Origin: Flavobacteriales bacterium
GTDB taxonomy: Bacteria; Bacteroidota; Bacteroidia; Flavobacteriales_G; JALEGO01
Direction: 5' to 3'
Assembly: GCA_020631045.1 (NCBI GenBank)
Contig: JAHDHZ010000005.1
Location: 39,831-77,046, forward strand
DNA: 37,216 nt
Shown: piece by piece, positions 25,101-37,216 of the stretch
Numbering within the stretch: position 1 is the stretch's first letter
Layout: every line of letters begins with the position of its first letter
The notes under the pieces: model-generated
The model's input: the letters and a program-made list of their open reading frames with translations, nothing else
Told to the model about the DNA's origin: nothing
Database searches by the model: none
Program-made: the position numbers and the translations under genes

Positions 25101-27994
25101 GCAAGATCTAATTTGAGCGTTTCACCAGCTTTGTATTGTGTTTTTGGCTCACAGATCCATAATACATCAGTACTGGGTATTAGCTTTGATTTTGAGTCAT
25201 AGCATGAAAAGAAATGCTCATAATCAACCTGTTGTTGGTTTTCATCAACTGCTTTTAAACTCAGCTTGTACAGCCCAGAAGAAAGGGTTTCAAGTACTGA
25301 TAAATCAATTACAGAATCTTGAGCAGTATTGAGTTGTTGATTAAATAGGGTCTGAACAGATTTAAATTTTGATGGATGGGATTTTCCATTATATAGATAA
25401 TTTGAAAAATGCTTTTCAAAGCTCAATGAATCAATTAAGCTATATTCAGCAGCAGAAAAAGGCCTTTGTTGGATGGATGTTTTAGGCGTTTTAAGCTTTT
25501 CAATCGTCGCTTGCACCTCAGTATCTAGTGACACACCCATTAAATTTTGAGCTCTAATCTCAACGCTTGGAAGTGCTGAAAGACTGATTTTTTCAGGCAT
25601 ATTACTTGAAAGCACTATTGATCTATGCCCACAAATGATGGTTTTCTCAGTAAATTGACTCTCACCATTTTCATCGATCACTTGCACTTCTATGGTGAAA
25701 TGGTATTGGGCGTATTGATCTGGTTGTTGGCTTTGCTCACCTGTTAGGGCAAAGCTTAAAGAAGCTTTGCCTTTTTTATTAGTTGTTCTACTACCACTGT
25801 AGACCAATAACTGATCTGAGGGTGTTGGAGGAGAAGCCCAGAAGTAACAAAAACGCGGATAACGTTTTGCGCGATAGACCTTGTATGTCACCTGAGCATT
25901 TTGAAGATCTAAGCCATTGAAATAAGCCGCGTGTATATCTACAGAGATATTTTGATTTAAAGCAAAACCATCTTGAATATTTTGCACCTTGACCTCAAAA
26001 CTAGGCGCTTTATATGCTTCTATTCTAATTTGGTGGTAGGCATTGTGCGTGTTTGATCTAAAATGAAAAGTGCCATTCAAAAGACCTTTAGGCAACACAA
26101 AGCTTGATTCAAAACTGCCAAATTCATCAGTTGTAAAATCTTTTGTCTCTAGCTTTTGATGGTTGGCATCATACAGGCTAAGCTCAAGGGCTTCTTTTTG
26201 AAGCAAGCGTCTTTTTTGCCCTTCTTTTTCAATGACAATGCCTTTGATGTACACATGGTCACCTGGTTTGTATAATTTGCGATCGGTAAATAGATAGGTG
26301 TGCTTTTCTGGGCGCAGGGTGTATCTATTTTTGTAGACTGAAACATTGTCATGATAGATCGAATCTTTGCCTAAGAAAATTTTCACCATAAAATTGTGAT
26401 GATTTTGCTTGTCGATCAATTGTTTTAAGGCTTCTTGCTCATGCATTTCACCTTTGAAGGTAAGCATGTATTCATAATCTCTTTGTTGAGCATTGTAGTT
26501 ACGCTTGTAGAATTCTATTTTGGCTTTTTTAATGTTTTTGCCACTTATGCGGTCTTTGATTTGAAAATGATTCTGCTCGCCAATTTTCTCTTCTATCAAC
26601 GCCAAATTGCTCACCCAAAACTGTTGCATTTGCACTTGAGTATTGGTATTGAAATCTTTATTATTACTTATCAATAGTACATATGGCCCGTTTGTTAAGC
26701 CCTGAAGCATAAATTCAGCAGAGTGTGATTTAAAATCTGTAAAAGCCTTTAAATCAAGCATTTTTTCAGCGATTGCCTTTTGTTTGAGTAAATAATTGAT
26801 TTTTTGAGCGTTGCGCATTGATCGCACCTGTTGTTTGTAGGTTAAATATTCAATAGGAATAATGCGGTAATATAGGTGGTTGATGTTTTTGTGCTCTACC
26901 CGACAAAGAGAAGGCGTGTTAATGTTGAGTACTGAGGGTAGGCTTACTGAGAATTGTGGGGCTAAAATTTGTGCCTTTAGTGCCAAGCAAGATTGGGCTT
27001 TTGAAGAGAGGCGAGCGTGGGCTTTGTCGCAAACCTCAAGGGCTTTTTTGAATTGTTGTTTTGAGTTGTAGTGGCTAGCCAGTTTGTAATAAACATGAGA
27101 AAGAGCAGTTTGGCTATTGTATTGCTTTATTAAATCTTTAAGGTATTGTATATAAAAGGCATCGGTAGTATTGTTTGTTTGGCCTTTTAAATAATCAATG
27201 TATTGAATGCGGTGGTGTAACTGCTCTTCAGCAGTTATGTTTTTAAGCCCGAGCAGCGTTTTGTATGTGTTAAAAATGATGACTTGTACATTGTTTGAAT
27301 CTCTATCTGATATATCAAGGGCACTTAAGTCAGAAAAAAATAGCTGTTGGTTTAAAAATAAAGGTTGCGCTTCTAAGTAAATTCCCTGAAGGGTTTTTAG
27401 TTGTTCAAGTATATTTTTTAGACTAAAGCTATATAACGATTGGGCAGTATTTTTTTGCTCTTTTAAAAGGGCTGTGAAATTGACAAGGTCAGTTGTGTTG
27501 TGTGCTTTTGAGTATTTAAGAGCAAGACGCGCATGTTGAAGAATCTTGTCTTTAAAGTTTAGAGGTGACCATTCTTGAATGGCGTTTAGGGGTAGGCCCC
27601 TAAGCGCCGTTTTTTGTTTGATGTGGTGCTGGTTATAAGAAAGGTATTTGGCATAGCATTCAGCTAAGAAGGTGTGGGTAAATCCAAGCATTGCACCTTG
27701 TTGATTCTTGGCAAAATCTTCAAGCAAGACGATGCTTTGTTTAAAATCGTTTTCTTTTATATGCGCATTGATGTTGGCTTTGTACACCAATGTTTTAAGC
27801 ACTTGAATTTGCTTATCTTCATCAAGGGCTTTTTGGTGCAAAACCTCAATTTTTTCAAGGGCATCTTTGCTCTTGCGATCTTGCATGAGTTTTTCAATAG
27901 CCTTCCACTCAGATTTAAAATCTTGTGCATTTTGACCTTTGGCAAAAGCAGTATGAACAATTAAAAGAATATAGATCAGTAAAAGACGCATCAT
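22136..27994 (-). CDS. Alpha-2-macroglobulin family protein lacking the thioester motif
   Basis: A 1952-residue exported protein. Residues 1-20 form a signal peptide (LLLIYILLIVHTAFA). A helical N-terminal region to about 350 contains TPR-like pairs. The MG2 domain follows near 565 (TDRKLYKPGDHVYIKG), then a low-complexity Ala/Ser/Lys/Glu-rich linker at about 1158-1205 where the bait region sits in relatives. Next are the A2M domain near 1208 (VFFFPRLTPNDS) and an alpha-helical thioester-type domain from about 1395 (DGGWPWIKS near 1521). The usual CxEQ thioester is replaced by AAAA at 1423-1426. Bacterial A2Ms are thought to trap proteases in the periplasm; YfaS-type forms also lack the thioester. 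No penicillin-binding protein 1C lies alongside. Confidence 0.93.
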   Translation of the reverse strand: MMRLLLIYILLIVHTAFAKGQNAQDFKSEWKAIEKLMQDRKSKDALEKIEVLHQKALDEDKQIQVLKTLVYKANINAHIKENDFKQSIVLLEDFAKNQQGAMLGFTHTFLAECYAKYLSYNQHHIKQKTALRGLPLNAIQEWSPLNFKDKILQHARLALKYSKAHNTTDLVNFTALLKEQKNTAQSLYSFSLKNILEQLKTLQGIYLEAQPLFLNQQLFFSDLSALDISDRDSNNVQVIIFNTYKTLLGLKNITAEEQLHHRIQYIDYLKGQTNNTTDAFYIQYLKDLIKQYNSQTALSHVYYKLASHYNSKQQFKKALEVCDKAHARLSSKAQSCLALKAQILAPQFSVSLPSVLNINTPSLCRVEHKNINHLYYRIIPIEYLTYKQQVRSMRNAQKINYLLKQKAIAEKMLDLKAFTDFKSHSAEFMLQGLTNGPYVLLISNNKDFNTNTQVQMQQFWVSNLALIEEKIGEQNHFQIKDRISGKNIKKAKIEFYKRNYNAQQRDYEYMLTFKGEMHEQEALKQLIDKQNHHNFMVKIFLGKDSIYHDNVSVYKNRYTLRPEKHTYLFTDRKLYKPGDHVYIKGIVIEKEGQKRRLLQKEALELSLYDANHQKLETKDFTTDEFGSFESSFVLPKGLLNGTFHFRSNTHNAYHQIRIEAYKAPSFEVKVQNIQDGFALNQNISVDIHAAYFNGLDLQNAQVTYKVYRAKRYPRFCYFWASPPTPSDQLLVYSGSRTTNKKGKASLSFALTGEQSQQPDQYAQYHFTIEVQVIDENGESQFTEKTIICGHRSIVLSSNMPEKISLSALPSVEIRAQNLMGVSLDTEVQATIEKLKTPKTSIQQRPFSAAEYSLIDSLSFEKHFSNYLYNGKSHPSKFKSVQTLFNQQLNTAQDSVIDLSVLETLSSGLYKLSLKAVDENQQQVDYEHFFSCYDSKSKLIPSTDVLWICEPKTQYKAGETLKLDLASSSNQLPTKVVIEHLGKPVFEKQLVLNKKAQSIEFEIQKAHEGGLFVHVNALLNNQFYEQNIGISVPHQKELKTLFLELSKKIKPSSTQKVSLLTRPNTQWLGFMYDAALDKIEPYHPVLDIFQKNYARYHIEHYGFNLARSQRLNTYQKAKYRIEYYQHPFNQIDWFSGALFQNRRFGRGFGWHEDMATPRVSMMKSKANVEVIADAVMVGEGEIDEASSRPSSKKIADAPPKKSAARTNFNDHVFFFPRLTPNDSILHFNYKATDQLSKFKMVLIGHDQSLNHKILTKEIISASPLMAKLHIPQFLRASDQLNLKYAIQKTENRPLNVKTHVQVFDRLQQSKLLDISKEALNLTSDQNMLSLSTPLQSPLSASVLQIDYHIKSRGLDDHIIKEIPLLSNEKQMTHTHLLYASKNEVYTQTIKAGKNHDYTLELALNPNMHVIKALDVRHEDLNLNAAAAVFAQWFSDVLVQQVLKRQPSIRNQIKVLSSNDQGKSNLQTNQDFKEIPLQASPWVREALNEHAQIKDLGLLLDENYLPQKTNELHDLLVRLQNSDGGWPWIKSMRSSTYITAYILQGIGQLKKKNLNKDFNAQLINKAIKYLDGQVLKSYEDIKKYTHDKSYRPSGYIIQILYARSYFSQINIEGNAQKAYAYFKGKIGAHYKTLPLRLLPMTALIEKRDQHQELAEKMLEIITQNSITDQRLGFYVKKHLLGSSYYENNIEVHTTMLEAFDEVLNDVHTVNQIKKWLLSNKRTQRWTNHKTTAQACFALLSEDTFSQTSLPQVLIDGKTLPIDADAKTLGYINMPLNLSDAAHKIEIKNESNSVCWGAIYEQFIENLDLTKAHNHPEISIKKAFFKLQDDQLIKIDESSPIEVGDKIKVRMVIATNQDFAFVQLRDFRPAGLEPINQKSNYTYRNDLWFYESPKMASHDVFFEFLPKGTHVFEYDLKASFSGKFSSGPADIQCAYAPEFKALSNGQRLTINPTHE

Positions 27995-28011
27995 TCAAAT
28001 TTAAATAGTTT

Positions 28012-29028
28012 CTATGCCAATTCAAGCTCATCTATGATCTCACTTAAGTAATTTTCATAGGGTACTTGAATTTTCTTTGGCTGATTGTGGTTTAAATCAT
28101 GTACTTTTTGCAGGTATTCTTGTTCTAACTGTCCTTTAGTGGCCTTTGCAATCACGAGCTTTTCAAGTTTACATACATCCATCAATGAAGAATAGCCTGC
28201 TCTACAAAAAACCACCTTGCTTTTTGAGATGAGTTCTTGAAGCTCTTCGGTTGAGAGATGATTGAAAAAATGGATGTTGTTGATCGATGTTGTTTTTGTT
28301 TGGGTTGGATTTCCGCCCAAAAGTGCAATATTTTGAGTTGAATCTCGATGCTTGTGTATAACTTCATTCATAAAAACAGTACGCTCAGGATCAGGACCCG
28401 AAATGAGATACAGTTTATCAAACAAAATATCTGCCAAACAGACTTTGTTAAAGCGCGAGAGTAAACCAATATATTTTACATGTTTAAGTTTTAAAGTATT
28501 TTCAGAAAGCTTTTGAGCTAAGCGTTCACCATCTTTTAAATCAGGCACCCATACCTCATTAAATTGCTTGGCAAAATACCCTACGATATGTTTGAAACAC
28601 AGGTTGATGATTGCAGAGCTACTTATCAAGTTTAATTGATGGGTCATTAAAATGCTTTTAACCTCAGGGTGAAATAGTCCGTATCTGTTATCTGAGAGAA
28701 CAAGATTTATCTTGTGTATTTTTACGATTTTTTTCAATACAAAATGCTCTTTTACAATTCCCCAAGAAATTTTGGGCAGTTGCAGCAGCATTGAACTCCA
28801 AAATGGCATTTTTGCGTAGTATTTAACATCATAATCTTTAAATTCAATTGTCTGAACGCCCAGATCTTCTTGCTCAATAAAAGCCTTTGCTTTACCTGAA
28901 CTGGCTACAATTACTTCATAGCCTCTTTCTTGAAAACCCTTAATCACAACAATACAGCGAGCAGCATGCCCAAGCCCCCAATTTAAGGGGCAGATCAAAA
29001 CACGCTTGTTGTTCTTTGTGAGCTTCAT
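28012..29028 (-). CDS. Glycosyltransferase, GT-B fold (MurG/GT28-like)
   Basis: A 338-residue GT-B protein. The N-terminal half opens with RVLICPLNWGLGHAARC, the GxGH-type loop of family 28 and related enzymes, and the C-terminal half has a nucleotide-sugar segment, SGPDPERT, and FCRAGYSSLMDVC near 273-285, typical of the donor-binding side. There are no transmembrane helices. The exact acceptor is unknown; it is not MurG itself, judging by missing MurG signatures. It lies 17 bases upstream of the alpha-2-macroglobulin gene and is divergent from an SDR with only 12 bases between start codons. Confidence 0.85.
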   Translation of the reverse strand: MKLTKNNKRVLICPLNWGLGHAARCIVVIKGFQERGYEVIVASSGKAKAFIEQEDLGVQTIEFKDYDVKYYAKMPFWSSMLLQLPKISWGIVKEHFVLKKIVKIHKINLVLSDNRYGLFHPEVKSILMTHQLNLISSSAIINLCFKHIVGYFAKQFNEVWVPDLKDGERLAQKLSENTLKLKHVKYIGLLSRFNKVCLADILFDKLYLISGPDPERTVFMNEVIHKHRDSTQNIALLGGNPTQTKTTSINNIHFFNHLSTEELQELISKSKVVFCRAGYSSLMDVCKLEKLVIAKATKGQLEQEYLQKVHDLNHNQPKKIQVPYENYLSEIIDELELA

Positions 29029-29036
29029 TACTTTTG
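29006..29036 (+). promoter_or_regulatory. SDR promoter inside the divergent glycosyltransferase gene
   Basis: A TTG at 29006-29008, a 20-base spacer and an exact TACTTTTG at 29029-29036 form a strong Bacteroidota promoter match. The -33 element lies within the first codons of the divergent glycosyltransferase. The GTG start at 29041 is 5 bases past the element, so the mRNA should be leaderless or nearly so. Confidence 0.7.
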
Positions 29037-29040
29037 CTAG

Positions 29041-29745
29041 GTGTCAAAATTAGCGTTAATTACCGGATCAACTAAAGGCCTGGGGCTTGAAATTACAAAG
29101 CTCATGCTTTCAAAAGGCTATGATGTGTTGTTGTCTTCTCGTAATCAAGCGCAATTAGAAAGCCTTAAAAAAGAGCTTGAAGTAAAGCATCCACAACAAA
29201 CAGTACATGTGCATGCAGTCAATTTTTCAGATGCTACTCAAACTATCTACTACCTTGAGCAAATCAGTAAACTAAGTGCTAAAATAGATGTAGTGTTTAA
29301 CAATGTTGGGCTTTACCTTGAAGATGACTTAAGTGAAGCCAAAGATGTGTTCGATCAAGTGATGCAGGTAAATCTCAAGTGTCATTATTTAATTACCAAA
29401 CGATTGTTGCCTGAGTTTTTAAAACAAAACAAAGGGTATTTTTTTACCATTTGTTCAGCTTTAAGCAAACAGGTGCGCATTCAAGCTGCGAGTTATTCAA
29501 TTGCCAAACACGGACTTTATGCTTTGCATAAATTGCTAGTTCAGCAAACCAAAGACACTAAAGTGAAAGCTACGGCCTTTTTGCCTGGCTCAATGAATAC
29601 GGCTTCATGGGAAAATATACAGGCTCCTCGTTTAGAGTTTATTCAGCCTAAAGATGTTATTTTAGCGATTGAAGCTTGCTTGTCAAGTTCTGAATATGCA
29701 CAGACAGATGAAATTATACTCAACTCAAAAAACAGTCAATACTAA
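29041..29745 (+). CDS. Short-chain dehydrogenase/reductase
   Basis: A 234-residue classical SDR. The cofactor motif is GSTKGLG (8-14, TGxxxGxG type), NNVG is at about 88-91, and the catalytic YxxxK is YSIAK near 158-162 with an upstream Ser in CSALSK. The GTG start is supported because the Rossmann strand LALITG begins immediately after it, no later start would keep the fold, and a promoter sits just before. The R/K pattern suggests NADP(H). The substrate is unknown. Its stop overlaps the trmB start (TAATG). Confidence 0.9.
   Translation: MSKLALITGSTKGLGLEITKLMLSKGYDVLLSSRNQAQLESLKKELEVKHPQQTVHVHAVNFSDATQTIYYLEQISKLSAKIDVVFNNVGLYLEDDLSEAKDVFDQVMQVNLKCHYLITKRLLPEFLKQNKGYFFTICSALSKQVRIQAASYSIAKHGLYALHKLLVQQTKDTKVKATAFLPGSMNTASWENIQAPRLEFIQPKDVILAIEACLSSSEYAQTDEIILNSKNSQY
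29045..29052 (-). promoter_or_regulatory. TAnnTTTG -7 element for the glycosyltransferase
   Basis: The minus-strand sequence TAATTTTG matches the consensus exactly and ends 17 bases before the glycosyltransferase ATG. It lies inside the second to fourth codons of the divergent SDR gene. The best TTG is only 16 bases further upstream, a short spacer. Confidence 0.45.
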
Positions 29746-30425
29746 TGGGAAAAGACAAACTTAGACGCTTTGCTGAGATGGAAACCTTCTCTAATGTCAT
29801 TCAACCTTCTTTAGATGAAGTATTGAACAAAGATTACTGCCTTAAAGGCAAATGGTATGAAGAGTTTAACAGAAAAGCACCTTTGGTATTAGAACTTGCT
29901 TGCGGAAAAGGAGAGTTTACAGTTGCTGGTGCTTTGAAAGATGCTTCAAAAAACTACATTGGCATTGACATCAAAGGCAATCGCATGCACAGAGGAGCAA
30001 AATTTTGTTTAGAAAACAATCTTACCCACGCACGGTTTTTAAGAACACGCATAGATTTTATCACCTCGTTTTTTGCCCCAGATGAAGTTGATGAAATCTT
30101 TATTGTCTTTCCCGACCCGCAACCTCAAAAACCAAGAGCTCGAAAGCGACTAACCTCGATGATGTTTATTGAGCGTTACAAACAAATTTTAAAAAAACAG
30201 GGCGTCATCCACCTTAAAACAGACAACAAAGGCTTTTTTGATTTTACCCTACAAGTGATCGAAGCACAAGGTTTTGAATTGATTGTGGCCTCAGATGACA
30301 TCTACGGAAAACCCAAAAACGATTTGATTCCTGAGATTGTCTATGAGACCAAAACCCATTATGAAAAACTTTTTTTAAAAGAAGGCAAAACCATGTGTTA
30401 TTTAAGATTCAAGGTGCATGAATGA
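29745..30425 (+). CDS. trmB: tRNA (guanine-N7-)-methyltransferase
   Basis: A 226-residue TrmB, which makes m7G46 in the variable loop of tRNA using SAM. The SAM motif is LELACGKGEFTVA near 49-61, followed by YIGIDIKGNRMHRGAK and the family-specific FPDPQPQKPRARKRLT near 121-136, which corresponds to the DPWxKKRHxKRR segment in proteobacteria. The C-terminal TxYE-like part reads YETKTHYEK. Start and stop overlap the neighbouring genes, indicating a tightly coupled string with the SDR and the alkyltransferase-like protein. Confidence 0.95.
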   Translation: MGKDKLRRFAEMETFSNVIQPSLDEVLNKDYCLKGKWYEEFNRKAPLVLELACGKGEFTVAGALKDASKNYIGIDIKGNRMHRGAKFCLENNLTHARFLRTRIDFITSFFAPDEVDEIFIVFPDPQPQKPRARKRLTSMMFIERYKQILKKQGVIHLKTDNKGFFDFTLQVIEAQGFELIVASDDIYGKPKNDLIPEIVYETKTHYEKLFLKEGKTMCYLRFKVHE

Positions 30426-30750
30426 TTTTTATCTGCAAGTCTTTGAAGTGGTAAAGCTTATTCCAAAAGGCAGAGTGAGCTCTTATGGGGCAATTGCCAA
30501 AGCTTTAGGTACGGCAAAATCATCAAGAATGGTAGGTTATGCCATGAACTTATCGCACAAGCATGATCCTAAAATTCCGGCGCATCGCGTAGTGAATCGC
30601 AACGGGCTGCTCACTGGCAAACACCATTTTGCTAGTGCCACCCAAATGCAAGAGCTTCTAAATAAAGAAGGTGTTCAGGTCATCGACGATAAAGTATGTA
30701 ATTTTGAGCATCTCTTCTGGGATCCTATTAAAGAGATTAAAGTAGAGTAA
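30418..30750 (+). CDS. Alkyltransferase-like protein (ATL, Cys replaced by Ala)
   Basis: A 110-residue protein that corresponds to the DNA-binding domain of O6-alkylguanine-DNA alkyltransferase. The active-site PCHRV is PAHRV (54-58), with Ala55 in place of the alkyl-acceptor Cys. The arginine-finger residue (Arg37 in SSRMVG) and Tyr23 are kept. This is the pattern of ATL proteins, which bind O6-alkylguanine and feed it to nucleotide excision repair rather than repairing it. The start lies 8 bases inside trmB. Confidence 0.9.
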   Translation: MNDFYLQVFEVVKLIPKGRVSSYGAIAKALGTAKSSRMVGYAMNLSHKHDPKIPAHRVVNRNGLLTGKHHFASATQMQELLNKEGVQVIDDKVCNFEHLFWDPIKEIKVE

Positions 30751-30784
30751 GTATAGAGAAATCCATCCACCCAAAAAAAGCACC

Positions 30785-31861
30785 ATGAACCAGCAAGAAG
30801 TATTAAACGCCCTTTCATTTGTCATAGAGCCTGACTTGAAAAAAGACATTGTAGCCCTTGATTTAATCTCAGATTTGAACATTCAGGGCAATGCAATTTC
30901 TTTTACTCTTAAGGTGAGTAATCCTGCGATGCACAACAAAAAGCGCATTCAAGAGGCCTGCGCGCATCATGTGCAAAAAAAGTTTAAAGATGCCCAGCTC
31001 AACATCAATGTCGTGGCTCTAGGAGATTCCAAAGACAGAAAGCCCGAACACAGAACCATCATGCCAGGGGTCAAACACATTATAGCAGTCTCTTCTGGTA
31101 AGGGAGGTGTTGGTAAGAGTACCATTACAGCGAACTTGGCTGCTGGAATGGCCCAGAAAGGGTATAAGGTAGGCTTGGTTGATGCAGATATTTATGGCCC
31201 TTCAATTCCTATGATGTTTGATGTGATGGATCAAAAGCCAGCGGTCAAAGACATTGATGGCAAGCAATTAATGATTCCGGTTGAAAATCACGGGGTAAAG
31301 ATCTTATCGATCGGCTTTTTTGCAGACATTAATCAGGCGGTAATTTGGAGAGGTCCTATGGCGTCAAAAGCCTTAAAACAAATGTTTAGAGATGTATATT
31401 GGGGCGATTTAGATGTCGTGTTTATTGACCTTCCGCCCGGAACGGGAGACATACATTTGACTTTAGTGCAAGCTGTTCCAATTACAGGAGCCTTAGTGGT
31501 CTCAACTCCTCAAGATGTAGCGCTGGCAGATGCTCGAAAGGGTATTAATATGTTTCAGAATCCCAATTTAAAAATTCCAGTTTTGGGCTTGATTGAAAAC
31601 ATGTCGTATTTCTCTCCTCCTGAATATCCTGACAAGAAATATTATTTATTTGGCGAGCACGGTACGCGCAACTTGGCACAAGAAATGAAGATTGATTTGT
31701 TGGCTGAAATTCCGATTGTAGAAAGTATAAGAAAGGCCGCAGATGTGGGGCGCCCTGCCGTGTTGCAGCAAGACACTTTACAGGCCGAGAAATTCTCAGA
31801 GTTGTGCGCCAAAATTGAGCAAGATATTCTTAAAGGCCAGCAAGTCGAATCTGTTTTGTAA
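30785..31861 (+). CDS. Mrp/ApbC-type iron-sulfur carrier ATPase
   Basis: A 358-residue protein with an N-terminal MIP18/DUF59 domain (1-75) and a C-terminal ParA-like P-loop ATPase. The deviant Walker A GKGGVGKS is at 105-112, followed by VDADIYGPSIP and DLPPGTGD, both hallmarks of Mrp/Nbp35. These proteins bind and hand over Fe-S clusters. The C-terminal CxxC seen in E. coli Mrp is absent here (IENMSYFSPPEYPDKKYY), as I recall for other Bacteroidota Mrp proteins. It lies 9 bases upstream of a NifU-domain scaffold, which fits a shared role in Fe-S delivery. Confidence 0.95.
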   Translation: MNQQEVLNALSFVIEPDLKKDIVALDLISDLNIQGNAISFTLKVSNPAMHNKKRIQEACAHHVQKKFKDAQLNINVVALGDSKDRKPEHRTIMPGVKHIIAVSSGKGGVGKSTITANLAAGMAQKGYKVGLVDADIYGPSIPMMFDVMDQKPAVKDIDGKQLMIPVENHGVKILSIGFFADINQAVIWRGPMASKALKQMFRDVYWGDLDVVFIDLPPGTGDIHLTLVQAVPITGALVVSTPQDVALADARKGINMFQNPNLKIPVLGLIENMSYFSPPEYPDKKYYLFGEHGTRNLAQEMKIDLLAEIPIVESIRKAADVGRPAVLQQDTLQAEKFSELCAKIEQDILKGQQVESVL

Positions 31862-31866
31862 ATTTG
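31859..31866 (+). promoter_or_regulatory. TAnnTTTG -7 element before the NifU-domain gene
   Basis: TAAATTTG matches the consensus exactly and includes the mrp stop codon TAA. The ATG of the next gene starts 5 bases after its G, the same geometry as at icmF and the SDR. No -33 TTG stands at the proper spacing, so co-transcription with mrp is more likely than independent initiation. Confidence 0.3.
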
Positions 31867-31870
31867 TAAT

Positions 31871-32107
31871 ATGAGCATGAGTGAACTAGAAGCAAAAGTT
31901 GAGAAGGCTTTAGATGAAATTCGCCCTTTTTTGCAAAAAGATGGAGGAGATGTTACATTAATAGAAGTAGATGCTTCAAACATGGCAAAGGTTTCTTTCG
32001 AAGGAGCCTGTAGAACCTGTTCTATGAATACCATGACCTTCACTTCAGGTGTTGAAGATGCCATAAAAAGAAACGTTCCTGAAATCAATGGAGTGATATC
32101 TGTTTGA
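31871..32107 (+). CDS. NifU C-terminal-domain Fe-S scaffold (Nfu)
   Basis: A 78-residue single-domain NifU C-terminal protein. The CxxC that binds or passes a [4Fe-4S] cluster is in GACRTCSMNTMTF with Cys47 and Cys50, and the family start ALDEIRPFLQKDGGDV is intact. It lacks the A-type domain found in NfuA, as expected for the short form. The position 9 bases after the Mrp ATPase suggests that the two act together in cluster transfer. A terminator-like hairpin lies beyond its stop, right before rimP. Confidence 0.94.
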   Translation: MSMSELEAKVEKALDEIRPFLQKDGGDVTLIEVDASNMAKVSFEGACRTCSMNTMTFTSGVEDAIKRNVPEINGVISV

Positions 32108-32134
32108 ATTTCTCGAAAAAATGCGTTAAATTCG
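32103..32134 (+). promoter_or_regulatory. Candidate promoter for rimP-nusA-infB
   Basis: TTTG at 32103-32106 is followed by a 20-base spacer and TAAATTCG at 32127-32134, one mismatch from TAnnTTTG. It overlaps the end of the NifU-domain gene. Initiation here would give a leader of about 45 bases that includes the hairpin at 32159-32179. Confidence 0.5.
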
Positions 32135-32158
32135 CAAAAGATTTGAGATTTGTAGATG

Positions 32159-32179
32159 AGGGCTTTTGGCCCTTTTTTT
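32159..32179 (+). terminator. Hairpin with T run directly before rimP (terminator or attenuator)
   Basis: A 5-bp GC-rich stem (AGGGC at 32159-32163 with GCCCT at 32169-32173) has a 5-base loop and a run of seven T to 32179. Only 5 bases then separate it from the rimP ATG at 32185, so no promoter fits after it. It may end nfu transcripts, attenuate rimP, or both. Confidence 0.65.
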
Positions 32180-32184
32180 ATTGG

Positions 32185-32646
32185 ATGGATAAACAAAAAG
32201 TTATAGAAGCCCTTGAGGGGCATTTAAGCCAAAGCGATTTATTTTTGGTCGATGTGCAGTTAGATGCGTCGAACAACTTGCGTGTTTTTGCTGACAAACC
32301 ATCGGGCATTACCATTGAAGAATGCAAACAAATTAGTCGTTTTATTGTCTCTGAGTTTGATAGAGAGGTAGAAGATTATGCTTTGCAGGTGAGCTCTCCT
32401 GATTTGTCAAAGCCTTTTAAAGTGCATGCTCAATATCAAAAGAATATTGGCAGAGAGATACAGGTAAAGACAGAAGATGAAAAGCTCAAAGGCGAATTGT
32501 TAGAAGTCTTAGAAGATCAAATCAAGCTTTCTTACACTGAGGTGTTAAGAGAGAAAAAGAAAAAAATCAAAGTTCAAAAAGAATTGGCCATTCCTTTTGA
32601 ATCTATTGTTGAGGCCAAAACGGTTATTTCATTTAAAAAAAGATAA
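32185..32646 (+). CDS. rimP: Ribosome maturation factor RimP
   Basis: A 153-residue RimP, needed for 30S subunit maturation. The N-terminal alpha/beta domain opens IEALEGHLSQSDLFLVDVQLD and includes the SGITIEECKQISRFI segment; the C-terminal SH3-like domain follows (about 85-153, EVSSPDLSKPFKVH-like and IGREIQVKT). The frame stays open upstream to 32104, but that extension passes through the hairpin and T run and looks unlike RimP, so I chose ATG 32185. It is 3 bases upstream of nusA, forming the conserved rimP-nusA-infB cluster. Confidence 0.93.
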   Translation: MDKQKVIEALEGHLSQSDLFLVDVQLDASNNLRVFADKPSGITIEECKQISRFIVSEFDREVEDYALQVSSPDLSKPFKVHAQYQKNIGREIQVKTEDEKLKGELLEVLEDQIKLSYTEVLREKKKKIKVQKELAIPFESIVEAKTVISFKKR

Positions 32647-32649
32647 GCC

Positions 32650-33885
32650 ATGAATACTGATGAGTTAATTGATTCGTTTTCAGATTTTAAAGAGATTAAA
32701 AATATTGATCGTGAGACGATGATGCATATTTTAGAAGATGTTTTTCACAGCATGCTCAAGAAAAAATATGGAGAAGAAAGCAATTGCGATGTGATTGTAA
32801 ATACTGATAAAGGACACTTAGAATTGTATCACTACAGAGATGTGGTCGCAGATGGAGCGCTTGAAGATGGATTGAATCAGATTGAGCTTTCTAAAGCAAT
32901 GGTAGAGATTCCTGACGTTGAGGTAGGTGAAGAATATGCAGAGAGTGTTCAGATCTCAGATTTTGGTCGAAGAGCCATTCTTTCATTGAGACAGAATCTA
33001 GCTTCTAAAATTCACGAGCTTGAAAAAGATGGAATTTACAAAAAATACAAAGATAGAGTAGGAGATATCATTGCTGGTGAGGTACATCAAATTTGGAAGC
33101 GCGAAATTCTCATATTAGATGAAGATGGCAACGAACTGGTTTTGCCAAGAAATGAACAGATACCCAGTGATTTTTATAAGAAAGGAGACAGCATTTCAGC
33201 TGTTGTAGCAGGTGTTGAAATGAAAAACAACACACCAATCATTATCTTATCAAGAACTTCACCGGTCTTTTTAGAGCGTTTATTTGAAAGAGAAGTGCCT
33301 GAGGTATTTGATGGATTGATTACTATAAAAAACATCGTTCGTGAGCCAGGGGAGCGTGCAAAAGTTGCAGTAGAATCATATGATGACCGTATTGATCCAG
33401 TAGGAGCATGTGTTGGTATGAAAGGAGCGCGTATTCACGGTATTGTAAGAGAGCTCAGAAACGAGAATATTGATGTGATTAATTTCACCAACAACATTCA
33501 GTTGTACATTTCAAGAGCGTTAAGCCCTGCTAAAATTACTTCTATTGAGCTAGATGATGAGACTAAAAGAGCAAAGGTGTTTTTACAACCAGATCAAGTT
33601 TCTCTGGCTATTGGCAAGGGTGGATACAACATTCGTTTGGCAGGAAAACTTACTGGTTACGAACTTGATGTATTTAGAGAAGGCGCTGTTGAAATAGAAG
33701 ATGTTGATTTAGATGAATTTGCAGATGAAATTGATCACTGGATCATTGACGAGCTTAAATCTATCGGATGCGATACAGGAAAGAGCGTGCTTGAAATTAG
33801 TAAAGAAGATCTAGTGAAAAGAACTGATTTAGAAGAAGAAACCATTGATGAGGTGATTTCAATCTTAAAGTCAGAATTTGAATAA
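32650..33885 (+). CDS. nusA: Transcription termination/antitermination factor NusA
   Basis: A 411-residue NusA. The order is an N-terminal RNA-polymerase-binding domain (1-125), the S1 domain (about 135-200, VGDIIAGEVHQIWKREILILD), KH1 with DPVGACVGMKGARI near 250-263 and KH2 with VSLAIGKGGYNIRLAGKL near 317-334. An acidic C-terminal helix-hairpin-helix-like segment follows, shorter than the two acidic repeats of E. coli NusA. The gene lies between rimP and infB in the usual order. NusA is itself a factor for pausing at hairpins, relevant to the leader hairpin upstream of rimP. Confidence 0.97.
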   Translation: MNTDELIDSFSDFKEIKNIDRETMMHILEDVFHSMLKKKYGEESNCDVIVNTDKGHLELYHYRDVVADGALEDGLNQIELSKAMVEIPDVEVGEEYAESVQISDFGRRAILSLRQNLASKIHELEKDGIYKKYKDRVGDIIAGEVHQIWKREILILDEDGNELVLPRNEQIPSDFYKKGDSISAVVAGVEMKNNTPIIILSRTSPVFLERLFEREVPEVFDGLITIKNIVREPGERAKVAVESYDDRIDPVGACVGMKGARIHGIVRELRNENIDVINFTNNIQLYISRALSPAKITSIELDDETKRAKVFLQPDQVSLAIGKGGYNIRLAGKLTGYELDVFREGAVEIEDVDLDEFADEIDHWIIDELKSIGCDTGKSVLEISKEDLVKRTDLEEETIDEVISILKSEFE

Positions 33886-33918
33886 ATAATAAGAAAATAA
33901 GAATAGAATTTTAGATAT

Positions 33919-36501
33919 ATGTCAGCTGTTAAACGATTAAGTAAAGTAGCAAGAGAATTCAACCAATCTATAGGGGAGATTGTTGATTTTCTTTCTTCAA
34001 AGGGCCACCAGGTTGATCCTAACCCGAATGCAAAGGTGCAGCCCCAAATGTATGATTTATTGGTCGCTGAGTACCATGCAGATAAGGCTGTAAGAGAAGA
34101 GGCCAAAAATGCTGGTGTTAACAATGCTGACAAACAGTCTATTTCGCTTGAGGAGTCTACCCCTAAAAAGACTAAAAAAGCTGAATCTGAAGAGATCATC
34201 ATCAAAAACATAGAGAACGCAGTTTCTACCATTAAAGCAAAAGCCCCAGAAGGGGCTAATCCTAATGTGGTTGGTAAGATTGATCTAGATCAGTTTTCAA
34301 AAAAGAAAAAAGAGGCTGAGGTAGAAAAGCCAGTTGAGGCCCCCAAGCCAGAGGTTAAAAAAGAAGAGAAAAAGAAGCCTGAAACAGAAACCATTAAGGC
34401 AACTGCTGAAAAGTTGACAGGGCCTAAGGTGGTCAAAAAAATTGAGTTGCCGGTTGAAAAACCAAGAACACCAAAATCACAAGATTCAAATGAAAAGCGC
34501 AAGCGTAAAAGAATCGTTAAAGATGGTCGTGTTGACGTGCGTTCTGAAGGACAGCGCTTCAAGAAAAATCAAAAAGGTAAGCAACCTAGAACTTCTGAAC
34601 TTTCTGAAGAAGAGATTCAAAAGCAAGTACGTGAAACCTTAGCGCGTTTAAGTTCTAAAGGAAAGTCAAAAGGCTCTAAACACAGAAAAGCGAAAAGAGA
34701 AGAAGCTGCCCAAGCCATGCAGCAAGAAGCTGAAAAAGTAGCAGCAGAAAAGAAGATCTTAAAGGTAACAGAGTTTGTCACAGCCAATGAATTGGCTTCG
34801 ATGATGGATGTTGCTGTGACTGATGTTATCTCTGCTTGTATGGCATTAGGCCTTTTTGTATCTATCAACCAACGATTAGATGCAGAGACGATTTCAATTG
34901 TAGTAGAAGAGTTTGGATACACAGTTGAGTTTACCTCTGCTGAGGTACAAGAATCAATTGTCATTGAAGAAGACAAGGCTGAAGATTTAGTTGAAAGAGC
35001 TCCTATTGTAACCATCATGGGACATGTTGATCACGGTAAAACATCGTTGCTTGATTACATTAGAAAATCAAATGTTACTGACGGTGAAGCTGGTGGAATT
35101 ACTCAACACATTGGGTCTTATTCTGTGAACTTCAATGATAAAAAAATAACCTTTTTAGATACACCTGGCCACGAGGCCTTTACTGCGATGCGTGCGCGTG
35201 GAGCACAAGTAACTGATGTAGTAATTATTGTGATTGCCGCTGACGATTCAATCATGCCTCAAACAAAAGAGGCCATCAATCACGCTCAGGCAGCTGGTGT
35301 ACCGATGGTCTTTGCCATCAATAAAATTGATAAAGAAGGAGCAAAACCTGATAAGGTGCGTGAAGAGCTATCAGCGTTAAACATCTTAGTTGAAGATTGG
35401 GGCGGAAAGTTTCAATGTCAAGAAATTTCGGCCAAAAGAGGTACCAATATAGACGAATTACTAGAAAAAGTGTTGCTTGAAGCTGAAATGCTTGAATTGA
35501 AAGCCAATCCAAGTAAAATGGCAGTTGGTACGATCATTGAATCTTCTTTAGACAAAGGTAGAGGGCACGTAGCTAATCTCTTAGTACAAGCAGGAACCTT
35601 AAAGATCGGAGATCCTATGGTAGCAGGAAGCTATGCCGGAAAAGTAAAGGCCATGTTCAACGAGAATGGCGAGAGCATCAAGCAAGCAGGTCCGTCTTCT
35701 CCTGTATCTATACTTGGATTAGATGGAGCGCCAAGTGCAGGTGATAAATTCAACGTCTTAGCTGACGAGAAAGAAACAAAATCTATTGCCACTAAGCGTC
35801 AGCAATTAATGCGTGAGCAAGGGATTCGAACTCAGAAGCACATCACGCTTGATGAAATTGGGCGTCGTTTGGCTATTGGAGACTTTAAAGAATTGAATGT
35901 AATCATCAAAGGTGATGTTGCTGGTTCAATCGAAGCCTTAGCAGATTCTTTATTGAAACTTTCTACTGAAAAAATTCAAGTAAATGTCATTCACAAATCT
36001 GTAGGTCAGATTTCTGATTCTGATGTATTGTTGGCCTCGGCCTCTGATGCGATTATTGTTGGTTTCCAGGTAAGACCTTCTGCAAGCGCTAGAAAACTAG
36101 CTGAAAAAGAGCAAATTGACATCAGATTATATTCTATTATTTACAAGGCTATTGAAGAATTGACAGCGGCTATGGAGGGCATGCTTGCTCCGACCATTAA
36201 AGAAGAAGTTGTTTGCAACATAGAGATCAGAGAAGTATTTAAAATCTCTAAAGTGGGTACAATTGCTGGATGTTTTGTAACTGATGGTAAAGTGTCAAGA
36301 AACACAAAAGTACGTGTTATTCGAGACGGAATAGTGATTCATACTGGAGATCTAGGCTCTTTAAAACGTTTCAAAGACGATGTGAAAGAAGTTGCTAAGG
36401 GCTATGAGTGTGGATTAAACATTGAGAAGTTTAACGACATTCAAGTGGGTGATTTAATTGAAGGGTACGAAGAGGTTGAGGTGAAAACCAAATTGGCTTA
36501 A
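33919..36501 (+). CDS. infB: Translation initiation factor IF-2
   Basis: An 860-residue IF-2. An N-terminal IF2N-type helix ([14 protein letters not shown]) is followed by a long, Lys/Glu-rich, low-complexity linker (about 60-285), a second IF2N-like domain, and the GTPase from about 360. GTPase motifs are GHVDHGKT (368-375, G1), DTPGHE (414-419, G3) and NKID near 468 (G4). The two beta-barrels and the C-terminal fMet-tRNA-binding domain complete it, with the [10 protein letters not shown]-type segment near the end. The linker is acidic/basic-mixed and is the most variable part. It is followed after 5 bases by the next gene. Confidence 0.97.
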
Positions 36502-36506
36502 CACTG

Positions 36507-37216
36507 ATGAAACTCGGAATTATTCTTGAGGGTAAAACTCCACCAGATAAGAGAGTTGGTCTAACGCCTGATCAATGTAAGACAATCGTCGAGCAGTATA
36601 ATGAGATCAAAATTTTTGTTCAAAAAAGTGCTATTCGATGTTTTTCTGATCAGCAGTATACAGACGCAGGCCTAGAGTTGGTTGATTCAGTTGATTTTTG
36701 TGATGTTATTGTTGGAGTCAAAGAAGTGCCTTTAGATATGTTGAGTAAAGAGAAGACGCACGTCTTTTTTTCTCATACAGCAAAAAAACAGCCATACAAT
36801 CGTAGGTTGTTACAAGAAATTCTAAAGCAAAACATTAACCTAATTGATTACGAGTACATTACCAATGATGATGGCAGACGATTAATCGGATTTGGCAGGT
36901 ATGCAGGTATTGTTGGAGCATACAATGGCTTTTTGACATTTGGAAAAAAGCACGAACTCTTTAATTTAAAACCCGCTTTTCAGTGCGAAGATCGCAAAGA
37001 AATTGAACGAGAATTAGATCAAATTCATCTTGGAGCTATTAAAATAGTATTGACAGGATCAGGAAGAGTAAGCAGGGGAGCAAGAGAAATTTTAGAACAT
37101 CTAAACGTTAAAGAAGTAACTCCTAATGAGTTTATGACTCAAAACTTTGATGATCCTGTGTTTACCAACCCATTGATTAAAGATCTATATCAACGCAAAG
37201 ATGGCAAGTTGTTTGA
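36507..37216 (+). CDS. Saccharopine/alanine dehydrogenase-like protein, 5' part
   Basis: An open frame of 236 codons from ATG 36507 runs off the right edge of the window. The N-terminal domain begins KLGIILEGKTPPDKRVGLTP, the start pattern of the alanine dehydrogenase/transhydrogenase N-domain and of LYS1-type saccharopine dehydrogenase. Later parts are LIDYEYITNDDGRRLIGFGRYAG-like (about 112-135) and the nucleotide-binding strand IKIVLTGSGRVSRGA (about 180-193). The FG-x-x-AG pattern favours the saccharopine-dehydrogenase-like branch over alanine dehydrogenase. The substrate is uncertain. It starts 5 bases after infB and is probably in the same transcript. Confidence 0.85.
   Translation, partial: MKLGIILEGKTPPDKRVGLTPDQCKTIVEQYNEIKIFVQKSAIRCFSDQQYTDAGLELVDSVDFCDVIVGVKEVPLDMLSKEKTHVFFSHTAKKQPYNRRLLQEILKQNINLIDYEYITNDDGRRLIGFGRYAGIVGAYNGFLTFGKKHELFNLKPAFQCEDRKEIERELDQIHLGAIKIVLTGSGRVSRGAREILEHLNVKEVTPNEFMTQNFDDPVFTNPLIKDLYQRKDGKLF

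Follow-up and report, generated by a model that had tools for sequence, protein, structure and literature searches.

An attenuator-like hairpin in the leader of rimP-nusA-infB, conserved in position and predicted fold among the Bacteroidota examined

The rimP-nusA-infB locus

The window, meaning the whole 37,216-nucleotide stretch of Flavobacteriales DNA that was analysed, carries rimP, nusA and infB as consecutive genes separated by gaps of 3 and 33 nt, downstream of genes for Mrp-type and NifU-like (Nfu) proteins. A preliminary description, made from the sequence alone, had named this gene order as mrp-nfu followed by rimP-nusA-infB, and Pfam confirmed each assignment. The closest NusA proteins in a collection of named genomes are from Bacteroidota, Crocinitomicaceae and other Flavobacteriales included, from which phylum Bacteroidota and class Bacteroidia were deduced. 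Between nfu and rimP lie a promoter-like box and a short hairpin, the latter beginning 50 bases past the Nfu stop codon. The features of the locus, in window positions, are as follows:

32103-32106, plus strand: candidate −33 element TTTG, read from the sequence with the consensus given in PMC7366714; a frequent tetramer, hence weak evidence
32127-32134, plus strand: −7 box TAAATTCG, one mismatch to the TAnnTTTG consensus
32139, plus strand: predicted transcription start (A), placed from a box at −12 to −5 as given in PMC9723704
32158-32174, plus strand: terminator hairpin with a GGGC-TTTTG-GCCC core and outer A-T and G-T pairs
32173-32179, plus strand: T7 tract, read from the sequence, and predicted premature 3′ end
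32185-32646, plus strand: rimP, first gene of rimP-nusA-infB (Pfam RimP_N, DUF150_C)
32650-33885, plus strand: nusA, the proposed feedback regulator (Pfam NusA_N, KH domains)
33919-36501, plus strand: infB, encoding IF2 (Pfam IF-2)

The TTTG element and TAAATTCG are separated by 20 bases, and the box is of the TAnnTTTG type described as the Bacteroidota promoter consensus in PMC7366714 and PMC9723704. Directly 3′ of the box is CAAAAG (32135-32140). The stem is formed by GGGC (32160-32163) and GCCC (32169-32172), extended by A32159 and G32158 pairing with T, and its loop side contains CTTTTG (32163-32168). Only five bases separate the T7 tract from the rimP ATG at 32185. On re-check, all of these positions agreed with those first reported, the five-base spacing included. 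With transcription starting at A32139, the leader RNA would measure about 41 nt to the end of the T7 tract and the 5′ UTR 46 nt. Two other hairpins were seen in the window: one at 32111-32148 in read-through RNA, pairing UCUCGAA with UUUGAGA around a UGCG/CGCA inner stem and overlapping the promoter box, and a strong terminator-like hairpin at 27577-27612, with 16 pairs and a GGGG-TAGG-CCCC core.

Taken in isolation, the window proves nothing about the hairpin, because a terminator scan of positions 27000-37216 runs at chance level (eight sites, the rimP hairpin among them, with 6.9 expected). The hairpin is weak, at −9.9 kcal/mol for 32139-32179, and its stem ranks 123rd in stability among the 125 hairpin leaders described below. 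At the gathering threshold, neither the Rfam rimP leader (RF01770) nor any other Rfam family matched the window. At a relaxed threshold RF01770 scored 19.0 bits against a gathering cut-off of 47 (E = 1.1), a match that was dropped as proof since similar scores were reached there by unrelated families. A covariance model (R1) trained on 63 leaders, with the window's own family excluded, gave its best match in the window at 32148-32187 (21.5 bits, E = 0.0034). Over the whole of the bacterium's own genome, the rimP site came 23rd of 46 listed matches, because other hairpins of this genome look alike, and several genomes gave ten or more matches. In practice the model recognises terminators in general, and it was set aside as proof of specificity. 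One of the look-alikes, lying directly after an open frame (G000:C62), even shares the CTTTTG loop. A pattern search of the same genome for a box-like TTYG followed by a GGG/CCC hairpin and T5 returned nine matches, two of which overlap and are the rimP leader; three others fall within open frames of one strand or the other, three immediately follow open frames, and the last is locus L253. The hairpin is an ordinary terminator by its sequence and unusual by its position.

Conservation of the hairpin and the promoter box

The hairpin in the window's class: The preliminary description had proposed a comparison of this leader in related genomes as a check. In the window's class, 149 genomes were searched, 137 had a RimP match and the upstream regions of 130 were read. 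A terminator-like hairpin within 140 nt of the rimP start was found in 125 of these 130, as against 60 of 2600 dinucleotide shuffles; the T-rich run after the stem is required by the search rule and is not independent evidence in the relatives. An energy-based rule recovered the hairpin in 124 of 130 genomes (44 of 520 shuffles), missing G046, G126, G044, G100, G136 and G066. In a named sample from a different collection, consisting partly of the same genomes (80 loci, three without a RimP match, 77 counted), the hairpin was found at 76 of 77 rimP loci. The hairpin before rimP is real and conserved by these sequence comparisons, and not a product of chance.

The five genomes missed by the hairpin rule are of several kinds. 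G052 has a hairpin near rimP by pattern search that the automatic rule overlooked, and G061 passes the energy rule; both were counted as misses. G066 (L116/L224), likewise counted as a miss, has a GGGGACACCGTCCCC hairpin some 230 nt ahead of its RimP match, which could reflect a longer leader or something else in between. G100 and G136 (L082 and L098, members of one family) have no rimP hairpin by either rule and carry a TAnnTTTG-like box, an arrangement in which the attenuator has apparently been lost. Automatic start-codon choice was wrong in some genomes, for example G037 and G052, which were kept in the counts. For G051 and G131, which were counted as hits and left out of the model, the rule scored a different hairpin higher, one that lies further upstream.

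The promoter box and its spacing: The opposite strand also passes the hairpin rule in 72 of 130 genomes, because many copies have a run of A ahead of the stem and therefore resemble bidirectional terminators, so the rule by itself gives no direction, which is supplied by the box. Of the 125 hairpin leaders, 119 have a strict TAnnTTTG no more than 70 nt upstream of the stem, and 122 have the box when TTCG is allowed, compared with 5/124 in a control segment, 5/125 on the other strand and 5/125 in a coding segment. In the named sample, the strict box was present in 61 of 76 leaders. The gap from box to stem is narrow, with 10th and 90th percentiles of 16 and 28 nt over 122 leaders, and the other examined genome of the window's genus (G001) has the same octamer, TAAATTCG, in the same place. 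A joint rule, with the box within 36 nt of the hairpin and the hairpin within 140 nt of the start, was satisfied by 120 of 130 rimP genes and by none of the control genes (recA 0/28, SHMT 0/24), for which the hairpin alone scored 2/28 and 2/24. These control counts exclude one recA and three SHMT loci without a motif to place the start, as well as three SHMT loci that were weak or partial (L395-L397). For rimP itself, in the 25 genomes of the 30-genome control panel where it was covered, the hairpin was present in 22 and the joint rule held in 20. In the 450 nt upstream, Nfu was found in just 3 of 130 genomes; the hairpin therefore goes with rimP and not with the upstream gene.

The stem within the class: The class consensus stem is GAGGGGAC/GTCCCCTC, with an exact GGGGAC...GTCCCC in 51 of 130 genomes. 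The 5′ arm contains more G than C in all 125 class leaders, G051 and G131 being scored on their further-upstream hairpin. Compensated changes are in excess, with both sides of a pair changed in 38 cells against 14.2 in shuffles and none of 500 shuffles as high, under a control that ignores relatedness. Across the 149 genomes GGGGAC-N3-8-GTCCCC occurs at 91 sites, 51 of them rimP leaders, and the reversed-pattern control about 127 times; the motif is not enriched genome-wide, yet over half of its copies stand at rimP. The window lacks the exact motif. Its stem is AGGGC/GCCCT, that of the other genome of its genus AGAGAGG/CCTCTCT, and those of two other family genomes GAGGG/CCCTC and AAGAGGG/CCCTCTT.

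The stem in other classes: Outside the class, 88 genomes of the same phylum had a RimP match and 66 were covered. The energy rule, with larger loops allowed, found a hairpin in all 66 (56 of 264 shuffles) and a stricter rule in 47 of 66; in a few genomes the best hairpin is not the one adjacent to rimP (G205 under the energy rule, G220 and G221 under the stricter rule). The stems differ between lineages and recur, with small variations, within their own: TCGCCCC...GGGCGA, of opposite polarity, in f66; AAAGTGGGG in f67; GTGAGCG in f73; and ATAGCCCG...CGGGCTAT in f64 and f69. Of the 66 leaders, 43 have a G-rich 5′ arm and 19 a C-rich one, with four ties. In the genomes of the phylum covered here, the place and predicted fold of the rimP leader are kept and the GGGc...gCCC signature is not. 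Loci L299-L338 and most of L269-L298 are the other-class loci at which stem sequence and polarity change between lineages. A sequence code in these stems, read by a co-evolving protein of the operon (the KH domains of NusA, or RimP), is a speculative and rather unlikely explanation for such changes.

Proposed mechanism and alternatives

A probable transcription attenuator of the rimP-leader type: The proposal of a promoter-proximal, attenuator-like hairpin in the rimP leader has gained support, as the element is conserved in the class and, with other stems, in the examined rest of the phylum. We regard the element as probably a rimP-leader transcription attenuator before rimP-nusA-infB, with a probability of about three in four. 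RNA polymerase would start near 32139 from the TAAATTCG promoter and make an RNA of about 41 nt, after which it would either stop at the hairpin and T7 tract or read through into rimP-nusA-infB. The ratio of stopping to read-through would probably be set by a protein acting on the polymerase. NusA is known to stimulate hairpin termination. Being the product of the second gene, NusA would be the most likely such protein, more NusA leading to more stopping; if attenuation does occur, we lean towards NusA as the effector, by analogy with other bacteria. The start site, termination in vivo and the role of NusA are all three inferred.

The preference for a protein over an RNA-only switch follows from the leader itself. 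Measured from the predicted start through the T-run, it has a median length of 44 nt in 122 leaders. The RNA that precedes the 3′ arm has a folding energy of 0.0 kcal/mol in the window and a median of −0.1 kcal/mol over 121 leaders, with a pre-structure of −3 kcal/mol or stronger involving the 5′ arm in 9 of the 121; folding this part of the window's predicted leader revealed no antiterminator helix. Both this analysis and that of chance helices below placed the start two bases downstream of the start based on PMC9723704. So short a leader, with next to no structure ahead of the hairpin, makes a switch by RNA alone unlikely and leaves a polymerase-bound protein as the natural alternative.

A possible pause or stability element: The hairpin might instead act as a NusA-sensitive pause site or as an RNA-stability element, with little RNA released. 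The low rank of the window's stem in stability would suit such a role, NusA acts on hairpin pauses as described in PMC12288461, and the hairpin also lies within the predicted 5′ UTR of read-through RNA. Set against this are the T-rich run after the stem, as in terminators (in the relatives required by the search rule), and the short RNA ending at such a site in the same operon of Streptococcus agalactiae, as described in PMC4448216. We consider this explanation unlikely, though it is the best placed of those competing with attenuation.

A possible terminator of mrp-nfu: The hairpin could be only the terminator of the upstream genes, with the rimP operon starting elsewhere. In favour of this, it lies 50 bases past the Nfu stop codon, and similar hairpins of the same genome stand at gene 3′ ends, for example G000:C62 and C82, directly after open frames. 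However, a promoter box is present between the nfu stop codon and the hairpin, at a distance from the hairpin that is conserved in relatives, the hairpin stays although Nfu was found upstream in just 3 of 130 genomes, and five bases are all that is left before the ATG. An exclusive role of this kind is improbable, while a rimP attenuator may also stop read-through from nfu.

Possible translational control: After read-through, the leader might instead control translation. In the best fold of 32139-32245 (−24.0 kcal/mol), rimP codons at 32204-32214 pair with the 5′ arm (32158-32168) and enclose a second stem, whose loop holds the AUG. This form is not shared, since 116 of 122 leaders keep the terminator hairpin when folded in the same way, and the reading is very improbable.

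A possible RNA-only switch: The preliminary description had further proposed that CAAAAG (32135-32140) pairs with CTTTTG (32163-32168) in read-through RNA from mrp-nfu to form a competing helix, and an attenuator built on this pair as its antiterminator can be dismissed almost entirely. The two six-base segments match perfectly, but a match as good arose in 267 of 2000 shuffles of the upstream sequence. Among relatives, 13 of 125 have such complementarity, where shuffles give 8.8%, and in the three other genomes of the family it reaches 3-4 nt at most. The helix is worth −2.2 kcal/mol (32135-32168) against −9.9 for the terminator, and CTTTTG is also the loop of the 3′ terminator G000:C62. Four of the six CAAAAG bases also precede the predicted start at 32139. 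When read-through RNA was folded from nine start points lying between 31871 and 32108, the proposed pairing appeared in none of the best folds and the terminator in seven. In the remaining two, which start at 31871 and 32000, nfu-coding RNA takes up the 5′ arm instead, by a margin of 2.8 and 2.3 kcal/mol. These folds make some competition possible in untranslated read-through RNA, by a helix other than the one proposed; most of this competition would probably be blocked by ribosomes translating nfu.

Relation to known rimP and nusA leaders

The rimP-leader family: Naville and Gautheret (2010; PMC2965389) described a family of rimP leaders, for which NusA was proposed as the best candidate effector. 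According to the main text of that work, the leader is a terminator with a G-rich 5′ and a C-rich 3′ arm (GGGc...gCCC) and a T-run, located 4-130 nt before rimP and without a larger conserved element in most species. The window agrees in both respects, its T7 tract ending 5 nt before the ATG and its arms reading GGGC...GCCC. It differs in having a TAnnTTTG-type box followed by a predicted leader of about 41 nt, and stems in other parts of the Bacteroidota diverge in sequence and even in polarity. The string ‘Bacteroid’ is absent from the main text of PMC2965389. RF01770, the Rfam rimP leader of Gammaproteobacteria, aligns with the window at its 3′ terminator (GGGCU....GCCCUUUUUUU), with a score below the cut-off. 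By position, predicted fold and 5′-arm polarity the window's element is a member of the rimP-leader family, though it falls short of that Rfam cut-off.

Proposed feedback by NusA: In Bacillus subtilis, NusA is autoregulated by termination in its leader (Mondal 2016, as described in PMC12288461); nusA likewise lies downstream in the same gene row here, and a dependence on NusA is proposed by analogy. An Escherichia coli precedent for regulation by NusA is cited in both PMC2965389 and PMC4448216. The rimP-nusA operon of S. agalactiae yields a short RNA whose 3′ end falls at a predicted intrinsic terminator, 31 nt past the start site, and NusA feedback has been suggested for it (PMC4448216, in its account of this operon); as a streptococcus and not a member of Bacteroidota, it is likened to the window by description and not by sequence. 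The predicted leader in the window is very short, with little room for RNA switching, and would offer a minimal test bed for protein-controlled intrinsic termination. Lineage-specific stems, in turn, would make any reading of the hairpin sequence by NusA directly testable by stem swaps.

Leaders in Bacteroidota: No account of the rimP leader through Bacteroidota was found in the literature covered, with supplements and most subscription journals outside its scope, and both the reach of the leader in this phylum and its lineage-specific stems appear to be new. The closest precedent is an RNA-seq study of Flavobacterium psychrophilum, in which a structured 5′ element before rimP is described as common to other Flavobacteriaceae genera, with no Rfam match reported and no mechanism given in its description of the element (PMC9723704). 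That element shares phylum and gene with the window's hairpin and is likened to it by description, not by sequence. The comparison suggests that the structured rimP 5′ element of F. psychrophilum is the known rimP-leader attenuator, and the comparative evidence presented here extends the rimP-leader family to the examined Bacteroidota genomes.
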